DNA from: Micromonospora carbonacea
Lineage (GTDB): Bacteria > Actinomycetota > Actinomycetes > Mycobacteriales > Micromonosporaceae
Length of the DNA stretch: 64,000 nt
Assembly: GCF_014205165.1 (NCBI RefSeq)
Contig: NZ_JACHMZ010000001.1
Coordinates: forward strand, 6,864,501 to 6,928,500
Direction of reading: 5' to 3'
Position 1 is the first letter of the stretch; each line of letters opens with the position of its first letter. The translations under genes and the position numbers were made by a program. This document shows, piece after piece, positions 11,577-57,812 of the stretch. Under the pieces are notes generated by a model. That model did not search any database, had not been told where the DNA came from, and was given only the letters and a program-made list of their open reading frames with translations.

Positions 11577-13058
11577 GTGCGCACCGTGACCGGACGTACG
11601 GACCGGGTGGTGGTCGTCGGCGCGGGGCTCGGCGGGCTGGCCTGCGCGCTGCACCTGGCCGGCAGCGGACGACAGGTGACCGTGCTCGAACGCGAGGCGG
11701 TGCCCGGCGGCCGGGCCGGCCGGCTCGGCGTCGACGGGTACGAGTTCGACACCGGCCCCACCGTGCTCACCATGCCCGACCTGATCGCCGAGGCGCTCGG
11801 GGCGGTCGGCGAGGAGCTGCGCGACTGGGTCGAGCTGATGCCGCTGGACCCGGCGTACCGGGCCTACTACCCGGACGGCTCGACGCTGGACGTCATCACC
11901 GACACCACCCGGATGGCCGCCGAGATCGCCTCGGTCTGCGGGCCCCGGGAGGCCGACGGCTACCTGCGCTTCGTCGACTACGCCCGCGAGCTGTGGCGGC
12001 TGGAGCGGGCCGACTTCATCGAGCGCAACCTCGACGCCCCCACCGACCTGCTCACCGGCAACCTGCTGAAGCTGCTGGCGGGCGGCGCGTTCCGCCGGCT
12101 CCAGACGAAGATCGGGCAGTTCTTCCGCGACCCGCGCACCCAGCGGATCTTCTCCTTCCAGGCCATGTACGCCGGGCTCGCCCCGCACGACGCGCTGGCC
12201 ATCTACGCCGTCATCGCGTACCTCGACTCGGTGGCCGGGGTCTACTTCCCGCGCGGCGGCATCCACGCGGTCTCCCGGGGGATGGCCGGCGCGGCCGAGA
12301 AGCACGGCGTGCAGATCCGCTACGGCACCACGGTGGCCCGGGTGGAGACCGCGAACGGCCGGGCGACCGGGGTGGTCACCGCAGACGGCGAGTTCGTCGG
12401 AGCCGACGTGGTGGTGCTCAACCCGGACCTGCCGGTCGCCTACCGGGACCTGCTCCCGCCGACCCGGCGACGCCGGTTGACGTACTCGCCGTCGTGCGTG
12501 GTGCTGCACGTCGGCTCGCGGCAGGGCTATGAGAAAATCGCCCACCACAACATCCACTTCGGACGGTCCTGGAAGGGCACGTTCGACGAGGTGATCCGGC
12601 GGGGGGAGCTGATGACCGACCCGTCCCTGCTGGTCACCAACCCCAGTCGCACCGACCCGGCGGTCGCCCCGGCCGGCGGGCACACGTACTACGTGCTCGC
12701 CCCGGTGCCGAACCTCGACCGGGCCCCGTTCGAGTGGCGCGGCGACCTCACCCGCCGGTACACCGACCAGCTCGTCGGCACGCTGGAGAAACGCGGGTAC
12801 GTCGGCTTCGGCGCCGGCATCGAGGTGTTGCGCGCGGTCACCCCGGCCGAGTGGGCCGAGCAGGGCATGGCCGCCGGCACCCCGTTCGCGTCCGCGCACA
12901 GCCTCTTCCAGACCGGCCCCTTCCGCCCGTCGAACCTGCACCGCACGCTTGGCAACGTGGTGTTCGTCGGCTCCGGCACCCAGCCCGGCGTCGGCGTGCC
13001 CATGGTCCTGATCTCCGGCAAGCTGGCCGCCGCCCGCGTGACGGGCGGCGACCGGTGA
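11577..13058 (+). CDS. crtI: Phytoene desaturase (carotenoid dehydrogenase)
   Basis: The 493-residue FAD-dependent desaturase introduces double bonds into phytoene. The N-terminal dinucleotide-binding motif is VVVVGAGLGGLACALHL, followed by VLEREAVPGGRAG. The C-terminal FAD contact is VVFVGSGTQPGVGVPMVLISG. The GTG start at 11577 has GAGGGAGG seven bases upstream. It sits 28 bases after crtE and 25 before idi, consistent with one operon. Confidence 0.93.
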   Translation: MRTVTGRTDRVVVVGAGLGGLACALHLAGSGRQVTVLEREAVPGGRAGRLGVDGYEFDTGPTVLTMPDLIAEALGAVGEELRDWVELMPLDPAYRAYYPDGSTLDVITDTTRMAAEIASVCGPREADGYLRFVDYARELWRLERADFIERNLDAPTDLLTGNLLKLLAGGAFRRLQTKIGQFFRDPRTQRIFSFQAMYAGLAPHDALAIYAVIAYLDSVAGVYFPRGGIHAVSRGMAGAAEKHGVQIRYGTTVARVETANGRATGVVTADGEFVGADVVVLNPDLPVAYRDLLPPTRRRRLTYSPSCVVLHVGSRQGYEKIAHHNIHFGRSWKGTFDEVIRRGELMTDPSLLVTNPSRTDPAVAPAGGHTYYVLAPVPNLDRAPFEWRGDLTRRYTDQLVGTLEKRGYVGFGAGIEVLRAVTPAEWAEQGMAAGTPFASAHSLFQTGPFRPSNLHRTLGNVVFVGSGTQPGVGVPMVLISGKLAAARVTGGDR

Positions 13059-28911: not shown

Positions 28912-29148
28912 TCAGCGGGGCCGGTTGTTCCAGTTGTAGAACGTCGGGATGTTCTCGAAGTGGTTCCAGGCGCACACTGCGCCCGCGCCCTCTCCACCCG
29001 TCGCCTCCGACCGCAGCCGGCGCGCGTCCTCCGCCTCCTGGAGCAGCGCGGCGAGCCCGTCGGCGGCATCCCGCACCCGGTCGACGACCGGGCCCTCCGT
29101 GGCCCCTCCGACGCGCTCAGACCGCCGGTGTCCGGTGTTCTCGGGCAT
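28912..29148 (-). CDS. RiPP precursor peptide with aromatic-X-Asn motifs (AmcA-like)
   Basis: The 78-residue peptide starts MPENTGHRRSERVGG. Its leader contains a helix (VDRVRDAADGLAALLQEAED) and its core ends AWNHFENIPTFYNWNNRPR. Within the last 20 residues WNH, FEN, FYN and WNN each place an aromatic two residues before Asn or His. This is the pattern radical SAM enzymes crosslink into 3-residue cyclophanes (triceptides). The next gene upstream, which overlaps it by 32 bases, is a matching radical SAM/SPASM enzyme. The name follows my memory of the NCBI AmcA family ('multiple cyclophane-containing RiPP') and is not checked. Confidence 0.75.
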   Translation of the reverse strand: MPENTGHRRSERVGGATEGPVVDRVRDAADGLAALLQEAEDARRLRSEATGGEGAGAVCAWNHFENIPTFYNWNNRPR

Positions 29149-30253
29149 GGTCCAACACTCCCTCCAGTAAGCGGATCTTGCTGTTACGGCAGTGCTCGGT
29201 CTCCGTACCGTTGAAACGCCCCAGCTCGAAGTAACGGTTGGCGGCGTGCCCGCCCCCGCAGAACCCGAAGTACGGGCAGGACGCCCGGCACGCCTCCACG
29301 CCGGCCAGGAACTCACCCACCCAGCCGGTCGTCCGCTCCGCGCCGGCCACGATCTCGGCCAGCGGGGTCGTCAGCACGTTGCCGCTGCTGAAGTCGCCGT
29401 AGCGGGGGTCGGAGAAGCCGGCCAGCTCCGGGGAGAGCACGACCACGGAGCCGTCGTGGCCGACCGTGGGGATCGGGTCCAGCCGCCGGGGCAACAGCCC
29501 GTCGACGCTGCCGTCGAGGACCGCCGCCGCGTACCGCAGCGACCACTCCACCTCGCGCAGGTGGATGCGGGGGTCCCGCCGCCAGGCGGCCACCAGCTCC
29601 GCCCAGAACGCGCGCACCCGGGCCGCCTCGTGGGCGTTGCTCCGGGTGTTGACCCCCTCCGTCTCCTCGATGTTGACGCCCAGCACCTCGCAGCCCAGGC
29701 CGAGGAAGTAGTCGTACAGCTCGGCGGCCCGGCCCGGATCCGGGTCGTTGACGACGGCCAGGGCCGAGAAGGGCAGCCCGTGCCGGCGCAGCGCCGCCAC
29801 CCCGCGCATGATCCGGTCGTACGCCGGCCGGCCGGCCCGGGTGACCCGGTCGCCGTTGCGCCCGCGTGGCCCGTCCACGCTCACGCTGACCCGCACCCGG
29901 TGCGCGGCGAGGAACTCGCACCAGGCGTCGTCGATGAGGGTCGCGTTGGTCTGCACGTGGTGTTCGACCTCCGGGCCGAACGGGGCGATCAGCGCGGCCA
30001 GGTGCTCCCGGCCGGCGGCCAGGGGCTCCCCGCCGTGCCACACCACCGAGAAGCGGTCGGCCTCTGCCCAGCGGTTCACCGAGGCCGCCACCGCCTCGGC
30101 GACCGGGACCGGCATCCGCCGGTCGGCCGCCCGCATCGGGAGGTAGCAGTATGCGCAGTCGAGGTTGCACAGGGTCGTCGGCTGCATCACGACGTACGAC
30201 GGGACCGGGGAGATTCCCCGCATCCCGCTCAACGGCCGTCCCCGAGCAGCCAT
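29117..30253 (-). CDS. Radical SAM/SPASM peptide maturase, cyclophane-forming (AmcB-like)
   Basis: The 378-residue product has the radical SAM cluster motif LCNLDCAYCYLP (Cys29, Cys33, Cys36) and WHGGEPL. The C-terminal SPASM domain carries Cys-rich motifs: ACRASCPYFGFCGGGHAANRYF and TETEHCRNSK. These ligate auxiliary Fe-S clusters used to modify ribosomal peptides. AAGGAGGGCG precedes the ATG. The precursor gene follows directly and overlaps the 3' end, so enzyme and substrate are probably co-translated. No transporter or protease gene is adjacent. Confidence 0.87.
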   Translation of the reverse strand: MAARGRPLSGMRGISPVPSYVVMQPTTLCNLDCAYCYLPMRAADRRMPVPVAEAVAASVNRWAEADRFSVVWHGGEPLAAGREHLAALIAPFGPEVEHHVQTNATLIDDAWCEFLAAHRVRVSVSVDGPRGRNGDRVTRAGRPAYDRIMRGVAALRRHGLPFSALAVVNDPDPGRAAELYDYFLGLGCEVLGVNIEETEGVNTRSNAHEAARVRAFWAELVAAWRRDPRIHLREVEWSLRYAAAVLDGSVDGLLPRRLDPIPTVGHDGSVVVLSPELAGFSDPRYGDFSSGNVLTTPLAEIVAGAERTTGWVGEFLAGVEACRASCPYFGFCGGGHAANRYFELGRFNGTETEHCRNSKIRLLEGVLDHAREHRTPAV

Positions 30254-31574: not shown

Positions 31575-33128
31575 CTACTGGCGGTGTACGGTCGCGCCGC
31601 CCGAAGTGGCGACGAGCGGTGGGACGGCGTGCCCGGGGGCGTCCGGGGCATCGGCGACCCGGCGTCCCACCCCTTCGAGCACGTGCTTGCCGATCAGGTT
31701 CCCGGCCGGCAGCTCGATCGGGTATTCCCCGTCGAAGCAGGCCCGGCAGAGCCGGGTCTTCGGCTGCTCGGTCGCGGCGATGAGGCCGGGAAGCGAAACA
31801 TAGCCCAGCGTGTCGGCGCCGATGGACCGCCGGATGCCCTCGTTGTCCAGTCCGTTGGCCAACAGCTCGGCCCGGGTGGCGAAGTCGATGCCGTAGAAAC
31901 ACGGCCAGTTGACCGGCGGGGAGGAGATCCGCACGTGGACCTCCAGCGCGCCCGCCTCGCGCAGCATCCGCACGATCGCCCGCTGGGTGTTGCCGCGCAC
32001 GATCGAGTCGTCGACCACCACCAGCCGCTTGCCCCGCACGTTCTCCCGCAGCGGGTTGAGCTTCAGCCGGATGCCGAGCTGGCGCAGGGTCTGCGACGGC
32101 TGGATGAACGTCCGGCCGACGTAGGGGTTCTTCATCAGGCCGGCGCCGTAGGTGATGCCGGACTCCTCGGCGTAGCCGATGGCGGCCGGGGTGCCGGACT
32201 CCGGCACCGGGATGACCAGGTCGGCCTCGACCGGGTGCTCCTTGGCGAGCTGGCGGCCGATCTGCACCCGGGCGGCGTGCACGTTGCGCCCGGCGATGGT
32301 GGCGTCCGGGCGGGCGATGTAGACGTACTCGAAGAGGCAGCCCTTCGGCTCGGGCGCGGCGAACCGGGCCGAGCGCAGGCCGTTCTCGTCGATGGCGATC
32401 AACTCGCCCGGCTCCACCTCGCGGACGACGCTCGCGCCCACGATGTCGAGCGCGGCGGTCTCGCTCGCCACCACCCAGCCGCGCTCCAGCCGGCCGAGGA
32501 CCAGCGGGCGCACGCCGTGCGGGTCGCGGGCCGCGTAGAGCGTCGACTCGTCCATGAAGACGAAGCTGAACGCCCCGCGCAGCTGGGGCAGCACCTCCAG
32601 CGCGGCGGCCTCGACCGAGAGATCCGGACGGCTGGCCAGCAGCATCGTGACCAGCGAGGTGTCGTTGGTCGAGCCGTCTGCGGCCAGGCCCCGCTCGGCC
32701 ACCTCACGCTGCAACTCGGCGGTGTTGACCAGGTTGCCGTTGTGCGCCAGCGCGATGGTGGTGCCCGCGCTGGTGGACCGGATGGTCGGCTGGGCGTTCT
32801 CCCAGGTCGAGCCGCCCGTCGTCGAGTAGCGCGCGTGCCCGATCGCGAGGTGCCCGCGCAGGCTCGCCAGGGTCGGCTCGTCGAAGACCTGGGCCACCAG
32901 GCCGAGGTCCTTGTAGACCACCACACCGGAGCCGTCGCTGACGGCGATCCCGGCGGCCTCCTGGCCACGGTGCTGGAGGGCGTAGAGCCCGAAGTAGGTG
33001 AGGTTGGCGACCTCTTCCCCGGGCGCCCAGACGCCGAAGACGCCGCAGGCGTCCTGGGGGCCGGGTCGTTGGGGATCGAGATCGTGGCTCAGCCGGCCGT
33101 CGCCTCGGGGCACCTGCCGCTCCCTCAT
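31575..33128 (-). CDS. purF: Amidophosphoribosyltransferase
   Basis: The 517-residue product commits PRPP to purine synthesis. After a short propeptide, Cys28 in DACGVFGVWA is the N-terminal nucleophile of the glutaminase domain; it should be exposed by cleavage. LVVVDDSIVRGNT is the PRPP-binding loop. Further Cys residues in NWPCFYG and RLCRACFDG match the 4Fe-4S ligands of the Bacillus-type enzyme. It is upstream of purM in an apparent purF-purM operon. Confidence 0.95.
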   Translation of the reverse strand: MRERQVPRGDGRLSHDLDPQRPGPQDACGVFGVWAPGEEVANLTYFGLYALQHRGQEAAGIAVSDGSGVVVYKDLGLVAQVFDEPTLASLRGHLAIGHARYSTTGGSTWENAQPTIRSTSAGTTIALAHNGNLVNTAELQREVAERGLAADGSTNDTSLVTMLLASRPDLSVEAAALEVLPQLRGAFSFVFMDESTLYAARDPHGVRPLVLGRLERGWVVASETAALDIVGASVVREVEPGELIAIDENGLRSARFAAPEPKGCLFEYVYIARPDATIAGRNVHAARVQIGRQLAKEHPVEADLVIPVPESGTPAAIGYAEESGITYGAGLMKNPYVGRTFIQPSQTLRQLGIRLKLNPLRENVRGKRLVVVDDSIVRGNTQRAIVRMLREAGALEVHVRISSPPVNWPCFYGIDFATRAELLANGLDNEGIRRSIGADTLGYVSLPGLIAATEQPKTRLCRACFDGEYPIELPAGNLIGKHVLEGVGRRVADAPDAPGHAVPPLVATSGGATVHRQ

Positions 33129-39920: not shown

Positions 39921-40604
39921 TCACGCCGGCGCCCCCACCAGGTGCTTGAGCACCGAGGTGAAGAAGCCGAGGCCGTCCAGGGAGGGGCCGGTGAGGGCCT
40001 CCACGGCGTGCTCGGGGTGCGGCATGATGCCGACCACGTTGCCGGCGGGGTTGGTGATGGCGGCGATGTCGCGCTGCGACCCGTTGGGATTGCCGCCGAC
40101 GTAGCGGGCGACGACCCTGCCCTCGGCCTCCAACTGGTCCAGCGTGGCGGCGTCGGCGACGTAGCAGCCCTCGCCGTTCTTGACCGGGATCAGGATCTCC
40201 TGGCCGGACTGGAAGGCGTTGGTCCACGCCGTGCCGACCGCCTCGACCCGCAGGACCTGGTCGCGGTTGCGGAAGTGCAGGTGCTGGTTGCGGGTCAGCG
40301 CGCCGGGCAGCAGGTGGGCCTCGCAGAGGATCTGGAAGCCGTTGCAGATGCCGAGCACCGGCAGGCCGCCCCGGGCGGCGTCCACCAGGGTCTCCATCAC
40401 CGGCGCGAACCGGGCGATGGCCCCGCAGCGCAGGTAGTCGCCGTACGAGAAGCCACCGGGGAGGACGACGGCGTCCACCCCGCGCAGGTCCGGGTCACCG
40501 TGCCAGAGCCGGACCGGCTCGGCGCCGGCGATCCGGACGGCCCGGGCCGCGTCCCCGTCGTCGAGCGAGCCGGGGAAGGTGACCACACCGACCCGGGCGG
40601 TCAC
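39921..40604 (-). CDS. purQ: Phosphoribosylformylglycinamidine synthase, glutaminase subunit
   Basis: The 227-residue class I glutamine amidotransferase supplies ammonia to PurL. The nucleophile Cys lies in [11 protein letters not shown] and the His-Glu of the triad in [29 protein letters not shown] forms the oxyanion loop. The GTG start overlaps the purS stop by four bases (GTGA). Confidence 0.95.
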
Positions 40605-42354: not shown

Positions 42355-43788
42355 TCAGAGGATGGGGGGTGGGGTGTAGGTGGCCGCCCCGGGGTGGGTG
42401 AGGGCGATCTTCGCGATGCGGGTGGTCACCCGGTCGACCTGGGCGCCGGCGGTGCCCACGAAGGCGGTGCGGTCGGCGATCAGCGCGTCGATGTCGGCGC
42501 GGGACAGGCCCAGGCGCGGGTCGGCGGCGAGGCGGTCGAACAGGTCGTTCTCGGTGGCGCCCCGCTCCCGCATGGCCAGCGCCACGCCGACCGCGTGCTC
42601 CTTGATCGCCTCGTGCGCCGCCTCCCGGCCGACGCCCCGGCGCACCGCCGCGACCAGGATCTTCGTCGTGGCCAGGAAGGGCAGGAAGCGCTCCAGCTCC
42701 CGGTTGACCACCGCCGGGTACGCCCCGAACTCGTCCAGCACGGTGAGGAACGTCTGGAACAGCCCGTCGGCGGCGAAGAACGCGTCGGGCAGGGCGACCC
42801 GGCGCACCACGGAGCAGGAGACGTCGCCCTCGTTCCACTGGTCGCCGGCCAGCTCGCCGACCATCGACAGGTAACCCCGGATGATCACCGCGAAGCCGTT
42901 CACCCGCTCGCTGGACCGGGTGTTCATCTTGTGCGGCATCGCGCTGGAGCCCACCTGGCCGGGCTTGAACCCCTCGGTGGCCAGCTCCTGCCCGACCATC
43001 AGCCGGATCGTGGTGGCCAGCGACGACGGCGCGGCGGCGACCTGGGCCAGCGCGGCGAGCACGTCGAAGTCGAGCGAGCGGGGGTAGACCTGGCCGACGC
43101 TGTCCAGCACCCGGGCGAAGCCGAGGTGCTCGGCGACCCGGTGCTCCAACTCGGCCACCTTGTCGGCGTCGCCGTCGAAGAGGTCGAGCTGGTCGGCGGC
43201 GGTGCCGACCGGGCCCTTGATCCCCCGCAGCGGATAGCGGGCGATCAGGTCCTCCAGCCGCTCGTACGCGATCAGCAGCTCCTCGGCGGCCGACGCGAAG
43301 CGCTTGCCCAGCGTGGTGGCCTGCGCGGCGACGTTGTGCGACCGGCCGGTCATGACCAGCCCGGAGTGCTCGTTGGCGAGCCGGGCGAGCCGGGCGAGGG
43401 CGGCCACCACCCGGTCCCGGATCAGCTCCAGCGACGCGCGGACCTGGAGCTGCTCGACGTTCTCGGTGAGGTCCCGGGAGGTCATCCCCTTGTGCACGTG
43501 CTCGTGCCCGGCGAGCGCGCTGAACTCCTCGATGCGGGCCTTCACGTCGTGCCGCGTGACCCGCTCGCGCTCGGCGATCGAGGCCAGGTCGACGTCGTCG
43601 AGCACCCGCTCGTACGCCTCGACCACGCCGTCGGGGACGGCCACGCCGAGGTCGCGCTGGGCGCGGAGCACGGCGAGCCAGAGCCGCCGCTCCATCCGTA
43701 CCTTCTCCTCCGGCGACCAGAGGGCGACCAGTTCGGGCGAGGCGTACCGGTGGGCGAGCACGTTCGGGATCGTCGTCACGTGCCCCAT
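42355..43788 (-). CDS. purB: Adenylosuccinate lyase
   Basis: The 477-residue fumarase-superfamily enzyme acts twice in purine synthesis. HEHVHKGMTSRDLTENVEQL, MTGRSHNVAAQATTLGKRFA and the signature GSSAMPHKMNTRSSERVNG identify it. The N-terminus NVLAHRYASPELVALWSPEEK is typical of actinobacterial PurB. It begins 76 bases after the lipoprotein gene stop on the same strand. Confidence 0.95.
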   Translation of the reverse strand: MGHVTTIPNVLAHRYASPELVALWSPEEKVRMERRLWLAVLRAQRDLGVAVPDGVVEAYERVLDDVDLASIAERERVTRHDVKARIEEFSALAGHEHVHKGMTSRDLTENVEQLQVRASLELIRDRVVAALARLARLANEHSGLVMTGRSHNVAAQATTLGKRFASAAEELLIAYERLEDLIARYPLRGIKGPVGTAADQLDLFDGDADKVAELEHRVAEHLGFARVLDSVGQVYPRSLDFDVLAALAQVAAAPSSLATTIRLMVGQELATEGFKPGQVGSSAMPHKMNTRSSERVNGFAVIIRGYLSMVGELAGDQWNEGDVSCSVVRRVALPDAFFAADGLFQTFLTVLDEFGAYPAVVNRELERFLPFLATTKILVAAVRRGVGREAAHEAIKEHAVGVALAMRERGATENDLFDRLAADPRLGLSRADIDALIADRTAFVGTAGAQVDRVTTRIAKIALTHPGAATYTPPPIL

Positions 43789-50835: not shown

Positions 50836-52191
50836 ATGACCGACAGGTACGCGAGCTTCGTCCGATCGGGGGCCGGCCGCGCGCTGGTCAAGCGCCTGGG
50901 GCTGCCCGACCCGCCACGACTGCGCCGGCACACCCCGGGGGACCCGCTGCTCCCCGGGCCGGCCCTGCTCGGCTCGGCCACCGGCGGCCGGCTCGCCGGG
51001 CCGGTCGGCACGATCCTGACCGCCGCCGGGGTGGAGCTGCGCGATCCGGTCGCCGCCGAGGCCCAGGAGCGCTTCGGCGCCCTGGTGTACGACGCCACGG
51101 GCATCACCGACTCCACCGGGCTGCGCCAGCTCTACGACTTCTTCCACCCGCGGGCCCGCTCGGTGCTGCCCGGCGGCCGGGTGATCGTGCTCGGCACCCC
51201 GCCCGACGAGTGCGGCACGCCGCGCGAGGCGACCGCCCAGCGGGCCCTGGAAGGGTTGACCCGCAGCATCGGCAAGGAGTTCGGCCGGGGCGTCACCGCC
51301 CAGCTCGTGCACGTCACGGCGCACGGCGACGCCGGCACGGCCACCGGCCTGGAGGCCACCCTGCGGTTCCTGCTCTCGGGCCGCTCGGCGTACGTCTCGG
51401 GGCAGGTGGTCCGGGTCGGCGCCGGCGCGGCCGAGCCGCCGGCCGACTGGGACCGGCCGCTCGACGGCCAGGTCGTCCTGGTGACCGGGGCGGCCCGGGG
51501 CATCGGCGCGGCCCTGGCCCGGGTGCTGGCCCGCGACGGCGCGCAGGTCGTCGCGCTCGACGTCCCGGCCGCCGGGGACGAGCTGGCCGCCGTCGCCAAC
51601 GAGATCGGCGGCACCGCCGTCCAGCTCGACCTGACCGCCCCGGACGCGCCCATCCGGCTCGCCGAGCATCTCGCGTCCCGGCACGGCCGGGTCGACGTGG
51701 TGGTGCACAACGCCGGCATCACCCGGGACCGGACGCTGGGTCGGATGGACGCCGACCGGTGGGACAGCGTCATCGACGTCAACCTGTCCAGCCAGGAACG
51801 CATCAACGACGTGCTGCTGGAGCGCGGGCTGATCCCGGCCGGCGGCCGGGTCGTCTCGGTCTCCTCGATCGCCGGGATCGCCGGCAACCGGGGCCAGACC
51901 AACTACGCCACCTCGAAGGCGGGCGTGATCGGCCTCGTGCAGTCGCTCGCCCCGGCGCTGCGCGAGCGCGGGATCAGCGTCAACGCGGTCGCCCCCGGGT
52001 TCATCGAGACCCGGCTGACCGCCCGCATCCCGCTCGTCGTCCGGGAGGCGGGCCGGCGGATGAACAGCATGGCCCAGGGCGGCCTGCCCGTGGACGTCGC
52101 CGAGACGATCGGCTGGCTGGCCTGGCCGGCGAGCGGGGCGGTCAGCGGCAACGTCGTCCGGGTCTGCGGCCAGAGCCTGCTGGGGGCGTGA
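50836..52191 (+). CDS. 3-oxoacyl-ACP reductase, high-molecular-weight FabG4 type
   Basis: The 451-residue product has two Rossmann-like halves. The N-terminal ~210 residues are a degenerate, flavodoxin-like domain. The C-terminal SDR domain starts VVLVTGAARGIGAALARVLA and has the active site SSIAGIAGNRGQTNYATSKAG (Ser, Tyr, Lys) and NAVAPGFIETRLT. This matches the FabG4-type reductases of actinobacteria, which prefer long-chain CoA substrates. The ATG is probably used leaderless. The stop overlaps the maoC ATG (TGATG). Confidence 0.92.
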   Translation: MTDRYASFVRSGAGRALVKRLGLPDPPRLRRHTPGDPLLPGPALLGSATGGRLAGPVGTILTAAGVELRDPVAAEAQERFGALVYDATGITDSTGLRQLYDFFHPRARSVLPGGRVIVLGTPPDECGTPREATAQRALEGLTRSIGKEFGRGVTAQLVHVTAHGDAGTATGLEATLRFLLSGRSAYVSGQVVRVGAGAAEPPADWDRPLDGQVVLVTGAARGIGAALARVLARDGAQVVALDVPAAGDELAAVANEIGGTAVQLDLTAPDAPIRLAEHLASRHGRVDVVVHNAGITRDRTLGRMDADRWDSVIDVNLSSQERINDVLLERGLIPAGGRVVSVSSIAGIAGNRGQTNYATSKAGVIGLVQSLAPALRERGISVNAVAPGFIETRLTARIPLVVREAGRRMNSMAQGGLPVDVAETIGWLAWPASGAVSGNVVRVCGQSLLGA

Positions 52192-53072
52192 TGGGCGGCG
52201 CGGACACGCAGGGCCGGACCCTGCTGGAGCTGCCCCGGCTGCCACAGGCCGGCCCGCTCTACCGGCGGGCGCTGCTCGGGGCGCTGCCCGGCCCGGGTCG
52301 CCGGCGCGGCGACGCGCTGCCGCAGGTCGAGCTGGCCGTCGTCGGGGTCACCGTCGACCGGGCGCACCTGGCCGACTACGACCGGGTCTGCGGGTTCCGG
52401 CTGGCCGACCGGCTCCCGGGGACGTACCCGCACGTGCTGGGGTTTCCGCTGGCGCTGCGGCTGATGACCGCGCCGCAGTTCCCGCTGCCGCTGGTCGGGC
52501 TGGTGCACGTGGCCAACCGGATCACCGTGCGCCGTCTGGTCGAGGCCGGCGAGACGCTGGACTTCCGCGCGTACGCCGAGCACCTGCGCCCGCACGAGCG
52601 GGGGCGGCAGGTCGACGTGGTGCTGGTCGGGTCGGTCGGCGGGGCGGAGGTGTGGCGCGGCGTGTCGACGTACCTGGGCAGGGAACGCACGGCCGGCGGC
52701 GGCGCGCGGCGCGACCGGGGTGAGCGGCCCGCCGCGCCGGCCGCCACCGCCTCCTGGCGGGTGCCGCCGAGGGTGGGCACCGACTACGCCCGGGTCTCCG
52801 GCGACCACAACCCGATCCACACGTCCCGGCTGGGGGCGCGGCTGTTCGGCTTCCCCCGCCCCATCGCGCACGGCATGTGGAGCAAGGCGCGCTGCCTGGC
52901 CGCGCTGGAGAATAGGCTGCCGGAGGCGTACGCGGTCGAGGTGGCGTTCAAGCTGCCGGTGCCGCTGCCGTCCACGGTGGCCTTCACCGCCACCGCCGAC
53001 GGCCCGGCCTGGGAGTTCGCCCTGCACGACGCGCGCAGCGGCAGGCCGCACCTGGCGGGCTCCGTGCGCTGA
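52191..53072 (+). CDS. MaoC-like (R)-specific dehydratase
   Basis: The 293-residue double hotdog product has the hydratase 2 motif YARVSGDHNPIHTS with catalytic Asp and His, then FGFPRPIAHGMWSKA. The N-terminal hotdog (VDRAHLADYDRVCGFRLADR, PHVLGFPLALRLM) is non-catalytic. With FabG4 it would perform the reduction and dehydration steps of fatty acyl-chain metabolism. ATG 52191 overlaps the fabG stop; GTG 52188 is an in-frame alternative. Confidence 0.9.
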   Translation: MGGADTQGRTLLELPRLPQAGPLYRRALLGALPGPGRRRGDALPQVELAVVGVTVDRAHLADYDRVCGFRLADRLPGTYPHVLGFPLALRLMTAPQFPLPLVGLVHVANRITVRRLVEAGETLDFRAYAEHLRPHERGRQVDVVLVGSVGGAEVWRGVSTYLGRERTAGGGARRDRGERPAAPAATASWRVPPRVGTDYARVSGDHNPIHTSRLGARLFGFPRPIAHGMWSKARCLAALENRLPEAYAVEVAFKLPVPLPSTVAFTATADGPAWEFALHDARSGRPHLAGSVR

Positions 53073-53156: not shown

Positions 53157-53185
53157 TCTCACGTTGAGATGTTCTCAGAGTGAGA
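53157..53185 (+). promoter_or_regulatory. Two inverted-repeat operators ahead of the NrtR-like gene
   Basis: TCTCACGTTGAGA at 53157-53169 and TCTCAGAGTGAGA at 53173-53185 share the form TCTCA-N3-TGAGA. They are spaced 16 bp centre to centre and end nine bases before the GTG start. Two phased sites so close to the start suggest cooperative autorepression by the encoded regulator. Confidence 0.75.
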
Positions 53186-53193
53186 GAGACGCC

Positions 53194-53946
53194 GTGAACG
53201 AGCAGGAGTTCCTCGCCGCCTACGACCCCCGGGCCTACCCGGCGGTCGCCGTCACCGTCGACGTGGTCGCCCTGACCGTCCGGTCCGACGCGCTGCACCT
53301 GCTGCTCGTCCGCCGGGGCGGGCCGCCGTTCGAGGGCCACTGGGCGCTGCCCGGCGGGTTCGTCCGGCCCGAGGAGGACCTGGCGGCCGGGGCCCGACGG
53401 GAGCTGGCCGAGGAGACCGGCCTCGGCGGCGAGCGGCTGCGCCGGGTCCACCTGGAGCAGCTCGCCAGCTACGGCGACCCCGACCGCGACCCCCGGATGC
53501 GGATCGTCTCGGTGGCCTACCTCGCGTTCGCCCCCGACCTGCCCGACCCGGCCGCCGGCAGCGACGCCGACGACGCGATCTGGCTGCCCGTGACCGCGCT
53601 GAGCAGCCGGCAGCTCGCCTTCGACCACGACCGGATCATCGACGACGGCCTGGAGCGGGCCCGGTCCAAGCTGGAATACACCCCGCTGGCCACCCGCTTC
53701 CTCGACACCGAGTTCACCATCAGCGAGCTGCGGGCCGTCTACGAGACCGTCTGGGGGCACCCGCTGCACCCCGGCAACTTCCACCGCAAGGTGCTCTCCG
53801 TGCCGGGCTTCGTGGAGAGCACCGGCGCGAGCACCGAACGCGGCGGCACGCGCGGCGGCCCCCGCGCCAAGCTCTACCGGGCCGGCGACGCCCGGCTGCT
53901 GCACCCGGCGCTGCTGCGCCCCGCCCGGGAGGAGACGGTGCGGTGA
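53194..53946 (+). CDS. NrtR-type regulator: Nudix domain fused to winged helix
   Basis: The 250-residue product has an N-terminal Nudix domain (LLLVRRGGPPFEGHWALPGG, RRELAEETGLGGE) and a C-terminal winged helix (FTISELRAVYETVWGHPLHP, GNFHRKVLS). This is the NrtR layout, in which the Nudix part senses ADP-ribose or a related NAD metabolite and releases DNA. The Nudix box reads G-x5-E-x7-REL-x2-ET (E for E-E at one place), so hydrolysis may be weak. GTG 53194 is preferred over ATG 53164, which lies inside the operators. The stop overlaps the next gene by four bases. Confidence 0.88.
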   Translation: MNEQEFLAAYDPRAYPAVAVTVDVVALTVRSDALHLLLVRRGGPPFEGHWALPGGFVRPEEDLAAGARRELAEETGLGGERLRRVHLEQLASYGDPDRDPRMRIVSVAYLAFAPDLPDPAAGSDADDAIWLPVTALSSRQLAFDHDRIIDDGLERARSKLEYTPLATRFLDTEFTISELRAVYETVWGHPLHPGNFHRKVLSVPGFVESTGASTERGGTRGGPRAKLYRAGDARLLHPALLRPAREETVR

Positions 53947-54929
53947 ACACCCACGAGGCGATCCGGCTGGTCACCGCCGCGCGCACCGACGCCGACCTGT
54001 TCGGCGTCGACCCGTCGGCCCACCGCTACCGCGAGCTGGTCGCGGCCCTGCACCCCGACCGGCTGGGCGCGCTCGACCCGGCCGTACGCGCCGCCGCCAC
54101 CGACGCGTTCGTGCAGGTCACCAACCGGTGGCGGGCCGGGCGGGCCAGCGCCGACCCGATCGTCCTCGGCGGCCACCGGCTCGGCCCGCTCGCCCACACC
54201 GGCGACCTCGCCGACCTCTACGACGTCGGGTCGGACCGGCTGCTCAAGCTGCCCCGCGACCCCGCCGACAACGACCTCGTCGCCCGCGAGCAGCACGCGC
54301 TGCGCACCATCGCCGAACGCGGCGACCCCCGCTACCTGCCGTACGTGCCCCGGCTCGTCGACACCCTCCGGCACCGGGACCCGGCCACCGGGGCGGAACG
54401 GCGGATCAGCGTGCTGGCCACCGCGCCCGGCCTGCACAGCCTCGACGAGGTGCGCCGCGCGTACCCCGACGGGCTCGACGGACGGGACGCGGCCTGGATG
54501 TGGCGGCGGCTGCTGGTCGCCCTCGGCCTGGCCCACCGGGCCGGCATCGTGCACGGCGCGGTGCTGCCCCGGCACGTGCTGATCGAGCCCGACGGGCACG
54601 GCGTGGTGCTCGTCGACTGGTGCTTCTCCGCCGCCACCGGAAGCACGATCCCCGCGCTGGTGCCCGGCCACGAGGACTGGTACCCGCCGGAGGTCGCCGC
54701 CCGGCGGCCCTGCGGGCCCGGCACCGACCTGGCGATGGCCGCCACGTGCATGGCGTGGCTGATGGGCGACCGGGCCCCGCGCGAGCTGCGCGCCTTCGCC
54801 CACGGCTGCCGCCGCCCGGCGCTGGCGTCCCGACCCGACGACGCGTGGCGACTGCTGCGCGAACTGGACGAGGTGCTCGAACGGCTCTACGGGCCGCGCA
54901 CCTTCCGACCCTTCACCCTCAACCCCTAG
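53943..54929 (+). CDS. J-domain-like plus protein-kinase-like fold (pseudokinase)
   Basis: The 328-residue product begins with a J-like domain: YRELVAALHPDRLG carries His-Pro-Asp (residues 37-39), the motif by which J-proteins stimulate Hsp70. A kinase-like fold follows: LLKLPRD supplies the ATP Lys. The usual HRDLKPEN loop reads VHGAVLPRHVLI (catalytic Asp replaced by Ala206), and DFG reads DWC. It is therefore probably a pseudokinase or a non-protein kinase. The C-terminal part keeps kinase C-lobe features (DLAMAATCMAWLMG). It overlaps nrtR by four bases and precedes the VWA gene by ten. Confidence 0.75.
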   Translation: MNTHEAIRLVTAARTDADLFGVDPSAHRYRELVAALHPDRLGALDPAVRAAATDAFVQVTNRWRAGRASADPIVLGGHRLGPLAHTGDLADLYDVGSDRLLKLPRDPADNDLVAREQHALRTIAERGDPRYLPYVPRLVDTLRHRDPATGAERRISVLATAPGLHSLDEVRRAYPDGLDGRDAAWMWRRLLVALGLAHRAGIVHGAVLPRHVLIEPDGHGVVLVDWCFSAATGSTIPALVPGHEDWYPPEVAARRPCGPGTDLAMAATCMAWLMGDRAPRELRAFAHGCRRPALASRPDDAWRLLRELDEVLERLYGPRTFRPFTLNP

Positions 54930-54939
54930 GGAGGCTGCC

Positions 54940-55902
54940 ATGGGCAGTGGAATGTGGTCCACCGACGTGTACGACGCCGCCGACCGGTACCGCCGGGCCA
55001 CCGGCAAGAGCGCCTTCGCCTACAGCGACAGCGGGGCGCGCAAGGTGCACCCCGCGCTCGACCCGCGCGACGCGATGCGGGAGAGCCGCGACTCGGCCGA
55101 GCACCCGCAGTCGACGGCCATCACGGTGCTGTTCGACGTCACCGGCTCCATGCGGAACGTGCCCCGCACCCTCCAGGCCAAGCTGCCGCAGCTGCTCGGG
55201 CTCCTGCTCCGCCAGGGGTACGCCCGCGACCCGCAGATCATGTTCGGCGCGATCGGCGACGCCACCTGCGACCGGGTGCCGTTGCAGGTCGGGCAGTTCG
55301 AGTCGGACAACCGGATGGACGACGACCTCGGCCGGATCGTGCTGGAGGGCGGCGGCGGCGGCCAGATGACCGAGTCCTACGAGCTGGCCATGTACTTCAT
55401 GGCGCGGCACACCGTCACCGACTGCTGGGAGAAGCGGGGCCGGCGCGGCTATCTGTTCATCATCGGCGACGAGCTGGCCTACCCCCAGGTCGACCGGCGG
55501 CAGGTGAGCCGGCTCATCGGCGACGACCTCCGCGAGGACGTGCCGCTGGCGCAGATCGTCGACGAGGTGACCCGGCGCTGGGACACCTACTACCTGCTCC
55601 CCGCCGGCAGCAGCTACGCCGGCAGCACGAAGGTGCTGGACTTCTGGCGCGACCTGCTCGGGCAGAACGCCGTCGTGCTCGACGACCTCGACGCGGTGTG
55701 CGAGACCATCGCGCTCACCGTCGGCCTCGGGGAGCAGGCCGTCGACCTCGATCAGGGCATCGCCGACCTCAAGAAGGCCGGCTCGAAGGCCACCGGCACC
55801 GTGTCGAAGGCGCTGGCCCGCCTCGGCCGGGGCGCCCGCGACCAGGTGGCCACGCTGCCCGCCCCGTCGACGCCGCCCACCCGTGGGGTGACCCGGCTGT
55901 GA
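54940..55902 (+). CDS. VWA-like (MIDAS) domain protein
   Basis: The 320-residue product has a von Willebrand A-like fold. ITVLFDVTGSMRNVPRTLQA contains the metal-site motif Asp66-X-Thr68-X-Ser70. GQMTESYELAMYFMARHT supplies the Thr of the second MIDAS segment, and YLFIIGDELAYP the third Asp. The tail after residue ~270 is Lys/Ala-rich. No signal peptide is present. Such proteins act as metal-dependent scaffolds. GGGAGGCTGCC precedes the ATG. The stop overlaps the next gene (GTGA). Confidence 0.85.
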   Translation: MGSGMWSTDVYDAADRYRRATGKSAFAYSDSGARKVHPALDPRDAMRESRDSAEHPQSTAITVLFDVTGSMRNVPRTLQAKLPQLLGLLLRQGYARDPQIMFGAIGDATCDRVPLQVGQFESDNRMDDDLGRIVLEGGGGGQMTESYELAMYFMARHTVTDCWEKRGRRGYLFIIGDELAYPQVDRRQVSRLIGDDLREDVPLAQIVDEVTRRWDTYYLLPAGSSYAGSTKVLDFWRDLLGQNAVVLDDLDAVCETIALTVGLGEQAVDLDQGIADLKKAGSKATGTVSKALARLGRGARDQVATLPAPSTPPTRGVTRL

Positions 55903-57152
55903 ACCACGTGCTGGTGGTCGACCTCGGCTACGGCGACGCAGGCAAGGGCACCGTCGTGGACTGGCTCTGCGCCACCCGGCCCGTCCACACGGTGATCCGC
56001 TTCAACGGGGGCGCGCAGGCGGCGCACAACGTCGTCCTGCGCGACGGGCGGCACCACACGTTCGCGCAGTTCGGGGCGGGCACCTTCCGCCCCGGCGTGC
56101 GGACCCACCTGTCCCGGCACGTGGTGGTGGACCCGCTCGCCCTGGCCGCCGAGGCCGACCACCTCGCCGCGGTGGGCGTGCCCGACGCGCTCGACCGGCT
56201 CACCGTCGACGGGGAGGCGCTCCTGGCCACCCCGTACCACCGGGCCGCCAACCGGGCCCGCGAGCTGGCCCGCGGGGCCGACCGGCACGGCTCCTGCGGG
56301 CTGGGGGTGGGCGAGGCCGTCGCGTACGGGCTCGCCCACCCCGACTCCGCGCCCCGGGTGGCGGACTGCCGCACCCCGGCCGTGCTGCGCCGCCGGCTGG
56401 CCGCCCTGCGCGACCGGCTCACCGCCGAACTCGGCCCGCTGGACGCCCCGCCCGTCGACGACTGCCTGCCCGCGTTCACCGCGTTCGCCGACCGGGTGGC
56501 GATCGTCGACCGGTCCCACCTCGCCGGGGTGCTGCGCGCCGGGACCTGCGTCTTCGAGGGCGCGCAGGGGGTGCTGCTCGACGAGTGGCACGGCTTCCAC
56601 CCGTACACGACGTGGAGCACCACCACGTTCGCCAACGCCGAGGGGCTGCTCGCCGAGGCGGGGCTGGCCGGCACCGCCGAGCGGCTGGGCGTGCTGCGGA
56701 TCACCACCACCCGGCACGGCCCCGGCCCGCTGGTCACCGAGGACCCGACGCTGCCGCTGGCCGACGTGCACAACGCGACCAACCCGTGGCAGGGCCGGTT
56801 CCGGTTCGGCCACTTCGACGCGGTCGCCCACCGGTACGCCCTCGCCGCGGCCGGCGGCGTCGACGGGCTTGCCCTCACCCACCTCGACCTGGCCCACCGG
56901 GGCCTGCGGATCTGCCGCCGCTACGACAGCATGGACCGCCTGGAGCCCGGCCCACCCGGCGACCTGGACCGCCAGGCCGCCCTCACCACCCGCCTGCTCG
57001 CGGCCCGCCCCGGCTACGACGACGGCCCGCCGGCCGACTGGCCCGCGGCGGTCGAGGAGGCGCTGGGCACCCCGGTGACGCTCACCTCCCACTCACCCAC
57101 CGCCGAGGGCAAGCAGGTAAGGAAGGGCACCTTGTTAACGCCTTTTGTATAG
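55899..57152 (+). CDS. Divergent adenylosuccinate synthetase-like enzyme
   Basis: The 417-residue product has the PurA fold but an altered signature. The GTP loop reads DLGYGDAGKGTVVDWL (Asp13 and Lys16 kept) where PurA has a WGDEGKGK form. The IMP-site segment is RFNGGAQAAHNVVL, in place of GGNNAGHTV, and FEGAQGVLLDEWHGFHPYTT follows. This points to a paralogue with a different substrate, not the housekeeping enzyme. GTG 55899 overlaps the VWA stop by four bases. The last ~11 codons, including a rare TTA Leu codon at 57135, come from repeat copy C. Confidence 0.82.
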   Translation: MNHVLVVDLGYGDAGKGTVVDWLCATRPVHTVIRFNGGAQAAHNVVLRDGRHHTFAQFGAGTFRPGVRTHLSRHVVVDPLALAAEADHLAAVGVPDALDRLTVDGEALLATPYHRAANRARELARGADRHGSCGLGVGEAVAYGLAHPDSAPRVADCRTPAVLRRRLAALRDRLTAELGPLDAPPVDDCLPAFTAFADRVAIVDRSHLAGVLRAGTCVFEGAQGVLLDEWHGFHPYTTWSTTTFANAEGLLAEAGLAGTAERLGVLRITTTRHGPGPLVTEDPTLPLADVHNATNPWQGRFRFGHFDAVAHRYALAAAGGVDGLALTHLDLAHRGLRICRRYDSMDRLEPGPPGDLDRQAALTTRLLAARPGYDDGPPADWPAAVEEALGTPVTLTSHSPTAEGKQVRKGTLLTPFV

Positions 57153-57172
57153 GAAGGGCCCCTTCCTAACGC
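57118..57172. repeat. Dispersed GTTAACGC repeat, copy C
   Basis: Reads TAAGGAAGGGCACCTT, then GTTAACGCCTTTTGT, then AGGAAGGGCCCCTTCCTAAC. The left two thirds is coding sequence of the PurA-like gene. The right arm AGGAAGGGCCCCTTCCT is itself a near-perfect palindrome and could act as a terminator before the DedA gene. Confidence 0.88.
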
Positions 57173-57194: not shown

Positions 57195-57812
57195 ATGCAG
57201 TCGGTCCTCGGCCTGCTCCACGACACGGTCACCTCGCCGTGGGTGTACCTGGTGATCTTCGCGGTCACCGCCGTCGACGCCGTCTTCCCGGCGGTGCCCG
57301 GCGAGACGATCGTGGTGACCGCCGGGGTCTTCGCGGTCGGCGGGAAGCCGGACCTGACCATGGTGATCGTGCTCGCCGCGGGCGGCGCGCTGGCCGGCGA
57401 CCACCTGTCGTACGCCATCGGCCGCCGCGGCGGCGCGCACCGGCTGGCCCGGCTGCCGGCGGACAGCCGGCGGCGCGCCGGGTCGGAGTGGGCCCGGCGG
57501 GCGGTCGACCGGCGCGGCGGCATGATGCTCACCACCGCCCGCTACGTTCCCGGTGGGCGCACGGCGGTGACCCTGACGATGGGCGCGGTCCGCTATCCGC
57601 TGCGGTCGTTCGTGCTCTTCGACGCGCTGGCCGCCGGCACCTGGGCGGCGTACTGCGGGCTGCTCGGCTACTTCGGCGGGCTGGCCTTCGAGCGGGAGCC
57701 CGTGCTGGGCATCCTGGCCGGGATCGGGCTGTCGGTCGCGATCACCGGCCTGCTGGAGGCCGCCCGCTGGTGTCGGCTCCGCGCCCGCCGCCGCGCCGCC
57801 GACCGGCGCTGA
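57195..57812 (+). CDS. DedA/VTT-family membrane protein
   Basis: The 205-residue product has the DedA layout. It has an N-terminal amphipathic/hydrophobic region with AVFPAVPGETIVVTAGVFAV (the P-x-E motif), GDHLSYAIGRRGG, then TTARYVPGGRTAVTLTMGA with the conserved Arg in a re-entrant loop, and two C-terminal transmembrane helices. DedA/VTT proteins flip phospholipids or undecaprenyl phosphate. It starts 42 bases after the PurA-like stop and is separated by repeat copy C, so cotranscription is uncertain. Confidence 0.85.
   Translation: MQSVLGLLHDTVTSPWVYLVIFAVTAVDAVFPAVPGETIVVTAGVFAVGGKPDLTMVIVLAAGGALAGDHLSYAIGRRGGAHRLARLPADSRRRAGSEWARRAVDRRGGMMLTTARYVPGGRTAVTLTMGAVRYPLRSFVLFDALAAGTWAAYCGLLGYFGGLAFEREPVLGILAGIGLSVAITGLLEAARWCRLRARRRAADRR

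Follow-up and report, generated by a model that had tools for sequence, protein, structure and literature searches.

The 64,000-nucleotide stretch analyzed here (the window), from the genome of the soil actinobacterium Micromonospora carbonacea, contains a four-gene operon on the + strand, which has MaoC-like and VTT genes as its neighbors and encodes, in order, an NrtR-type regulator, a J-domain pseudokinase, a putative VWA-domain protein and a PurA-like enzyme. The genome comprises 7.5 Mb, and its nearest named protein relatives are from Micromonospora. We tentatively propose, at somewhat less than even confidence, an NrtR-controlled accessory operon in which a module shared with phages would join a 6-oxopurine nucleotide to an amine other than free aspartate. 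According to the alignments and tree described below, the PurA-like proteins form a family of their own in which the residues predicted to serve phosphoryl transfer to a 6-oxopurine are retained.

An original prediction, made from the sequence alone, held that the four genes overlap or lie within ten bases of each other and work as a unit. The open reading frame (ORF) coordinates bear out the first point: nrtR and the J-domain pseudokinase gene overlap by 4 bases, the latter is separated from the VWA gene by 10 bases, and the VWA and PurA-like genes again overlap by 4 bases. The second point agrees with the arrangement in relatives. A search of the Micromonosporaceae with the VWA protein gave matches in 75 of 150 genomes, and when profiles of all four proteins were applied to 20 loci from these 75 genomes (own included), strand and order were the same in all 20. 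Another 20 loci from relatives were read with longer flanks, some of them from genomes of the first set; all 20 had VWA and PurA-like genes, 18 had the J-domain pseudokinase, and NrtR was convincing in 19. The genes were thus found together across genomes, as the original prediction had expected.

The PurA-like enzyme

The PurA-like enzyme (55899-57152, + strand, GTG start) has 417 residues and the signature Q40, H43, H273 and Q298. It matches Pfam Adenylsucc_synt at 196.5 bits, above the cut-off, with a full-length fold, and contains the motifs GYGDAGKGT and GGAQAAHN, quoted in the original prediction as the changed nucleotide signature of a PurA paralogue. Across the family, the catalytic Asp13, Lys16 and His41 are each kept in 158 of 158 rows, and Q224 is also kept. 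The claim of a changed paralogue therefore stands in a refined form: the two motifs retain the catalytic Asp, Lys and His, and the alterations lie in the pockets for inosine monophosphate (IMP), aspartate and guanosine triphosphate (GTP), where N38Q, V273H, T301Q and mostly K331H are fixed changes. R143 is not conserved and R303 is mostly lost across the family; among N38, V273, T301, R303 and R143, the enzyme of the window keeps only R303.

The phylogenetic check, also suggested in the original prediction, places the enzyme outside housekeeping PurA. The PurA-like and housekeeping proteins form separate groups with a split of 100/100, at a position where the program warned that long branches meet. 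The NCBIfam model for housekeeping PurA (TIGR00184), whose cut-off is 395.55 bits, is matched at 115.3, and the genome's own housekeeping purA is located approximately 2 kb beyond the end of the window. Based on this, together with the separate tree group and the altered IMP and aspartate residues, housekeeping PurA was rejected as the identity of the enzyme. A housekeeping-type PurA was also found in 14 of the 17 searched genomes with a PurA-like protein (own included). The real purine genes had been placed elsewhere in the window; this holds for purF (31575-33128), purQ (39921-40604) and purB (42355-43788), all on the − strand, and fails for purA, which lies past its end.

An ordinary PurA isozyme for special conditions would account for what the enzyme shares with PurA (PF00709), namely the full-length fold and D13, K16, H41 and Q224. 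We regard this explanation as highly improbable, since residues of the IMP site, the aspartate loop and the GTP-base site are changed family-wide, the TIGR00184 score is far below cut-off, the tree groups are separate and the enzyme is linked to VWA, its near-constant neighbor.

The VWA protein and the J-domain pseudokinase

The VWA gene (54940-55902, + strand) is preceded by GGGAGG, and its product matches PHROG phrog_2971 at 7.5e-76. Library matches were weak, with E values of 0.0024 for DUF6456, 0.11 for DUF444 and 0.14 for CobT, and no significant match to a VWA profile was obtained; DUF444 and CobT are themselves VWA proteins. The assignment as VWA rests on near-invariant residues of the metal ion-dependent adhesion site (MIDAS), D66-x-T68-G69-S70 and D177, and to this extent the original prediction of a MIDAS-type protein is supported. 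Among 352 distinct paired rows, D66, S70 and D177 are found in 352 and T68 in 350. Columns with at least 98% of one letter comprise D66, T68, G69, S70 and D177 and, among others, D107, E121, G139, G140 and E145.

The protein begins with MGSGMW, corresponding to the pattern Met-Gly-x-Gly-x-Trp (codons at 54940-54957, + strand). Gly2 is near-invariant (349 of 351 rows) and is the sole column reaching 98% in the first 46 residues; in the paired rows, residue 2 of the PurA-like protein is by comparison not conserved. A Met-Gly start was detected by pattern in 138 of 140 VWA ORFs in the first scans and in 485 of 501 rows in a larger set. The 129 distinct Met-Gly ORFs start with ATG in 128 cases and GTG in one, and a ribosome-site-like stretch lies upstream of 125.

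Residue coupling between the two proteins was calculated from 352 pairs, with an effective number of 278 at 80%. When all pairs are used, VWA residues 3 and 7 couple with PurA-like residues 56, 58, 278 and 297, placed near the aspartate site, and where a comparison was made the signal exceeds that of three shuffles within clades. The segment of VWA residues 1-7 ranks 1 of 259 for this PurA-like region, which was defined after the pairs were seen, and 2 of 259 under other settings; in two 70% samples it ranked 47 and 17. VWA residues 1-14 contribute 7 of the top 80 coupled pairs (4.2 expected, 3-6 in shuffles), which is no clear enrichment. For three of the four N-terminal pairs, one or more of these runs gave a rank in the hundreds or thousands, and four 85% samples gave ranks of 8-457 of 83,258 for the N-terminal pairs. 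Pairs 28-328 and 216-188 were never ranked lower than 14 in any of these runs. The coupling of the VWA N-terminus is thus a hint towards the Gly2 proposal given below that is unstable to subsampling, and it is not treated as evidence here.

The J-domain pseudokinase (53943-54929, + strand) was identified by matching profiles with PDB chains of DnaJ proteins and kinases. The J-domain (approximately residues 20-71) has a best E value of 1.3e-6 to DnaJ chains, and the kinase C-lobe was also matched. The HPD motif is kept, its three letters occurring in 125, 122 and 124 of the 126 rows with letters, in line with the J-like part named in the original prediction. The same account had described a kinase-like protein without the catalytic Asp, which is confirmed: the HRD Asp is replaced by Ala in the window (HGA) and occurs in 11 of 137 rows; at the DFG position, 71 rows have Asp and 61 have Gly. 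The protein is best seen as an adaptor with a putative Hsp70-recruiting arm, Hsp70 binding being predicted from the family.

De novo clustering revealed one additional family, a small protein of approximately 200 residues present at 106 loci, mostly directly upstream of VWA (for example L006, 7391-7999, cluster 2), and conserved in this position in Bacillota and viral loci. No clear match was obtained for it in the three tested against Pfam. No locus contains both the small protein and the J-domain pseudokinase (17 loci), and the small protein may be a functional stand-in for the latter.

NrtR and the spread of the operon

NrtR (53194-53946, + strand) matches Pfam NUDIX at 79.2 bits and NrtR_WHD at 45.6 bits, both above cut-off, in agreement with the predicted Nudix and winged-helix regulator. 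The two TCTCA-N3-TGAGA sites named in the original prediction are present at 53157-53169 (TCTCACGTTGAGA) and 53173-53185 (TCTCAGAGTGAGA), with their starts 16 bases apart; they are putative operators, read from the sequence, and their type and position upstream of nrtR are kept in relatives. The GTG at 53194 is the probable start of nrtR, because a TTG start at 53164 would fall within the operators. Of 21 rows (own and 20 others), 18 have one or more exact CTCA-N3-(T/C)GAG sites ahead of the operon, compared with 42 of 4200 random segments taken from the same loci. The exceptions are L195 and L201, with one-mismatch copies, and L207, with none.

Searched on both strands, the genome contains a single exact copy of the operator pair; other matches have two mismatches, and a reversed control gave one. 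NrtR therefore looks like a local switch rather than the controller of a nicotinamide adenine dinucleotide (NAD) regulon, and the predicted control of the gene set by a Nudix regulator is narrowed to apparently this operon alone. The Mycobacterium smegmatis regulator, as described in the accessible text of PMC6800001, likewise combines Nudix and winged-helix domains and is autoregulated. It differs in having a damaged Nudix box with no hydrolase activity detected, the operator GTTTTCGA-N7-TCGAAAAC and NAD genes as targets. The Nudix box of the window NrtR is intact, as it is in 18 of 21 Micromonosporaceae rows compared with 7 of 42 other operon-linked bacterial copies (strict pattern). The equivalog model for ADP-ribose-responsive repressors, NF050029, is matched at 135.8 bits, below its cut-off of 400.

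An NrtR-type regulator together with a vWA protein is also found in the predicted ADP-ribosylglycohydrolase (ARG)-centred NrtR/WYL host systems of actinobacteria (Iyer 2022; accessible text of PMC9503650). The operon could accordingly be a host system of this kind that counters or repairs ADP-ribosylation, with the PurA-like protein in the enzyme slot, and its patchy presence in the family (75 of 150 genomes) would fit. This is clearly improbable in our estimate: the enzyme is different, and no ARG, phosphatase, Macro or NADAR match, hence no ADP-ribose-removing gene, was found in the four genes. A library scan of the four genes and four neighbors likewise returned no ARG, and the terms PurA and adenylosuccin are absent from the main text of PMC9503650.

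The operon is flanked by the MaoC-like gene (52188-53072, + strand) on the left and a VTT/DedA-like gene (57195-57812, + strand; library scan) on the right, both outside it. All 41 genomes of the genus that were searched gave a match to the MaoC protein, and 30 of these loci were read. In 20 of these (own, 18 others and G510), nrtR and the kinase gene adjoin MaoC; these short loci stop before the VWA gene, and the operon is seen there as nrtR and kinase only. VTT directly follows MaoC in nine operon-less relatives, and one locus ends at a contig edge. In G510 (L283), nrtR and kinase residues 1-142 are followed by a PurA-like tail and VTT; another kinase fragment lies where the contig ends, so part of this oddity could be an assembly artefact. 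The empty MaoC-VTT site of G521 (L284) retains a PurA-like scar. Because of these remnants, the operon seems to have been present earlier at this chromosomal site in the genus and then lost, apparently by deletion, in several relatives; a cassette newly arrived in the genus was rejected, as the remnants fit loss better. A narrow spread was also rejected: a single-sequence search of the phylum (2 of 396 genomes) under-reports relative to the profile search, which covered 249 genomes from the order and detected VWA in 45.

Two copies of a dispersed short repeat (GGAAGGGCCCCTTCTTAAC-like) are located at the 3' end of the PurA-like gene (57121-57170). Genome-wide, 275 sites (140 + 135) with at most two mismatches were found, against 0 for a reversed control, and the repeat also occurs between MaoC and VTT in two operon-less relatives (L285 and L286). 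Elsewhere in the window, a radical SAM cyclophane peptide maturase of AmcB type (29117-30253, − strand; NF041718 520 bits, cut-off 425) suggests a locus for a ribosomally synthesized and post-translationally modified peptide, and a CrtI-family phytoene desaturase, a carotenoid gene, is encoded at 11577-13058 (+ strand).

Outside the order, the core of J-domain pseudokinase, VWA and PurA-like genes recurs in Clostridia, Alphaproteobacteria and phages, and the VWA/PurA-like pair also in Bacteroidota. Besides VWA, PHROGs matches were obtained for the Nudix regulator (phrog_1198, 4e-25), the kinase (phrog_3043, 3.5e-51) and the PurA-like enzyme (phrog_1211, 6.5e-75). Neighbors were counted in the best 80 of at least 565 confirmed stretches from the genome collection and the best 80 of 334 confirmed viral stretches, leaving out 22 bacterial and 3 viral loci without a called VWA gene. 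The 58 bacterial loci contained PurA-like in 54, NrtR-like in 35 and the J-domain pseudokinase in 13 cases; PurA-like was found at 76 of the 77 viral loci, and neither NrtR nor the J-domain pseudokinase at any of the 77 at the threshold used. Starting from PurA-like (80 loci read from 413 confirmed viral stretches), VWA was found at 76 loci, the upstream region being cut off at the other 4, the J-domain pseudokinase at 54 and a Nudix match at 5, two of apparently identical sequence. VWA also adjoins PurA-like in one Rhizobium phage and one Vibrio phage. Cluster C mycobacteriophages of the Bxz1 group carry homologues of the kinase, VWA and PurA-like genes, arranged as in the window. They differ in a small ORF between VWA and PurA-like, in a VWA gene without annotation and in having no NrtR in the stretch read; their annotations are 'PurA-like adenylosuccinate synthetase' and 'serine/threonine kinase'. 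We know of no function for the PurA-like and kinase genes of this group.

These distributions bear on two further explanations. The product of the PurA-like enzyme might be an alarmone, a modified nucleotide that diffuses and is sensed by VWA or the Nudix repressor; VWA and the J-domain pseudokinase would then be effectors rather than substrates. The changed pockets and a Nudix-type regulator with an intact box in most Micromonosporaceae rows favor this, but no NrtR-like gene was found at the 77 viral VWA loci and one at only 5 of the 80 viral PurA-like loci, so that the core works without this sensor, and few of the other bacterial copies have an intact box; we consider it possible and on balance unlikely. 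Alternatively, the genes might be a PurZ-like phage set making a modified DNA or RNA base, with bacterial copies derived from phages. Like PurZ/PurZ0 of 2-aminoadenine phages, the enzyme is a divergent PurA paralogue present in phages, its copies from bacteria and viruses are intermingled in the tree, the PHROG label of its family is '2-aminooxy adenylosuccinate synthetase', and phage records use this name or PurA-like adenylosuccinate synthetase. In phage PurZ, however, Asp13 is replaced by Ser, according to the accessible text of a 2026 study of viral PurA homologues (PMC12884076), which assigns 251 of 767 sequences to a PurA group and 151 to a PurZ group and gives the remainder no group name. 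PurZ was rejected as identity of the enzyme because Asp13 is kept in all 158 rows and the PurZ model (NF038379) is matched at 37.7 bits, below its cut-off of 300. The commonest neighbors by clustering are PurA-like, VWA, the small protein, a Nudix gene and the J-domain pseudokinase, and the remnants place the locus at this chromosomal site before its loss in relatives. A base-modification set is improbable on these grounds.

Proposed mechanism and significance

In the preferred explanation, an NrtR-controlled operon joining a purine nucleotide to an amine, the PurA-like enzyme would use a nucleoside triphosphate to activate the 6-oxygen of a purine nucleotide, which would then be joined to an amine, though not simply to free aspartate. 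The obligate partner would be VWA, as acceptor, presenter or regulator, and the J-domain pseudokinase a non-catalytic adaptor able to bring in Hsp70. NrtR would repress the operon until the level of an ADP-ribose-type ligand increases. As the original prediction suggested, the context is probably stress or a conflict between phage and host, judging from circumstantial evidence.

A more specific version, which we consider quite unlikely, makes the PurA-like enzyme a protein-modifying ligase that would activate the 6-oxopurine nucleotide and couple it to the alpha-amine of the VWA N-terminal glycine. This Gly2 amine, freed by removal of Met, would substitute for that of aspartate. It is considered because a near-invariant N-terminal Gly adjoins an enzyme class that couples an alpha-amine to an activated purine. 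To our knowledge, a covalent purine nucleotide on a protein N-terminal glycine is without precedent. If true, VWA would carry such a nucleotide, a switch in bacteria and phages.

Several observations speak against the preferred explanation. R303 is retained in the window's own enzyme, and some aspartate contact may survive. A literal Met-Gly is missing from 16 of 501 VWA rows, most of which have Val, Leu or Ile and then Gly, taken here as other start codons, and a few of the 16, at L063, L388, L442, L524 and L585, are fragments or exceptions. Many Bacillota and viral loci have an unrelated small protein in its position, so the J-domain pseudokinase is not essential to the VWA/PurA-like pair; L204 and L207, both from genus g241, have VWA and PurA-like matches with no J-domain pseudokinase found, and in L207 a convincing NrtR was likewise not found. 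The ADP-ribose-type ligand suggested for NrtR is carried over from its relatives only.

PADLOC gave no model for VWA or PurA-like at E ≤1; its kinase-domain models match the J-domain pseudokinase, and one Nudix model matches NrtR. No account of the four-gene set was found in the open-access literature, and a subscription paper could hold one. Because the enzyme falls outside PurA and PurZ and the operon outside the ARG-type systems, we rate the system as categorically new, its parts being known folds. A family filed as adenylosuccinate synthetase in bacteria and phages appears to act otherwise, with a near-constant protein partner, and may represent an overlooked piece of nucleotide chemistry common to distant bacteria and many phages. 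The operon in M. carbonacea is a small, regulated unit in which this chemistry can be examined outside pathogens, and its sequence yields directly testable predictions on both the acceptor and the regulator.

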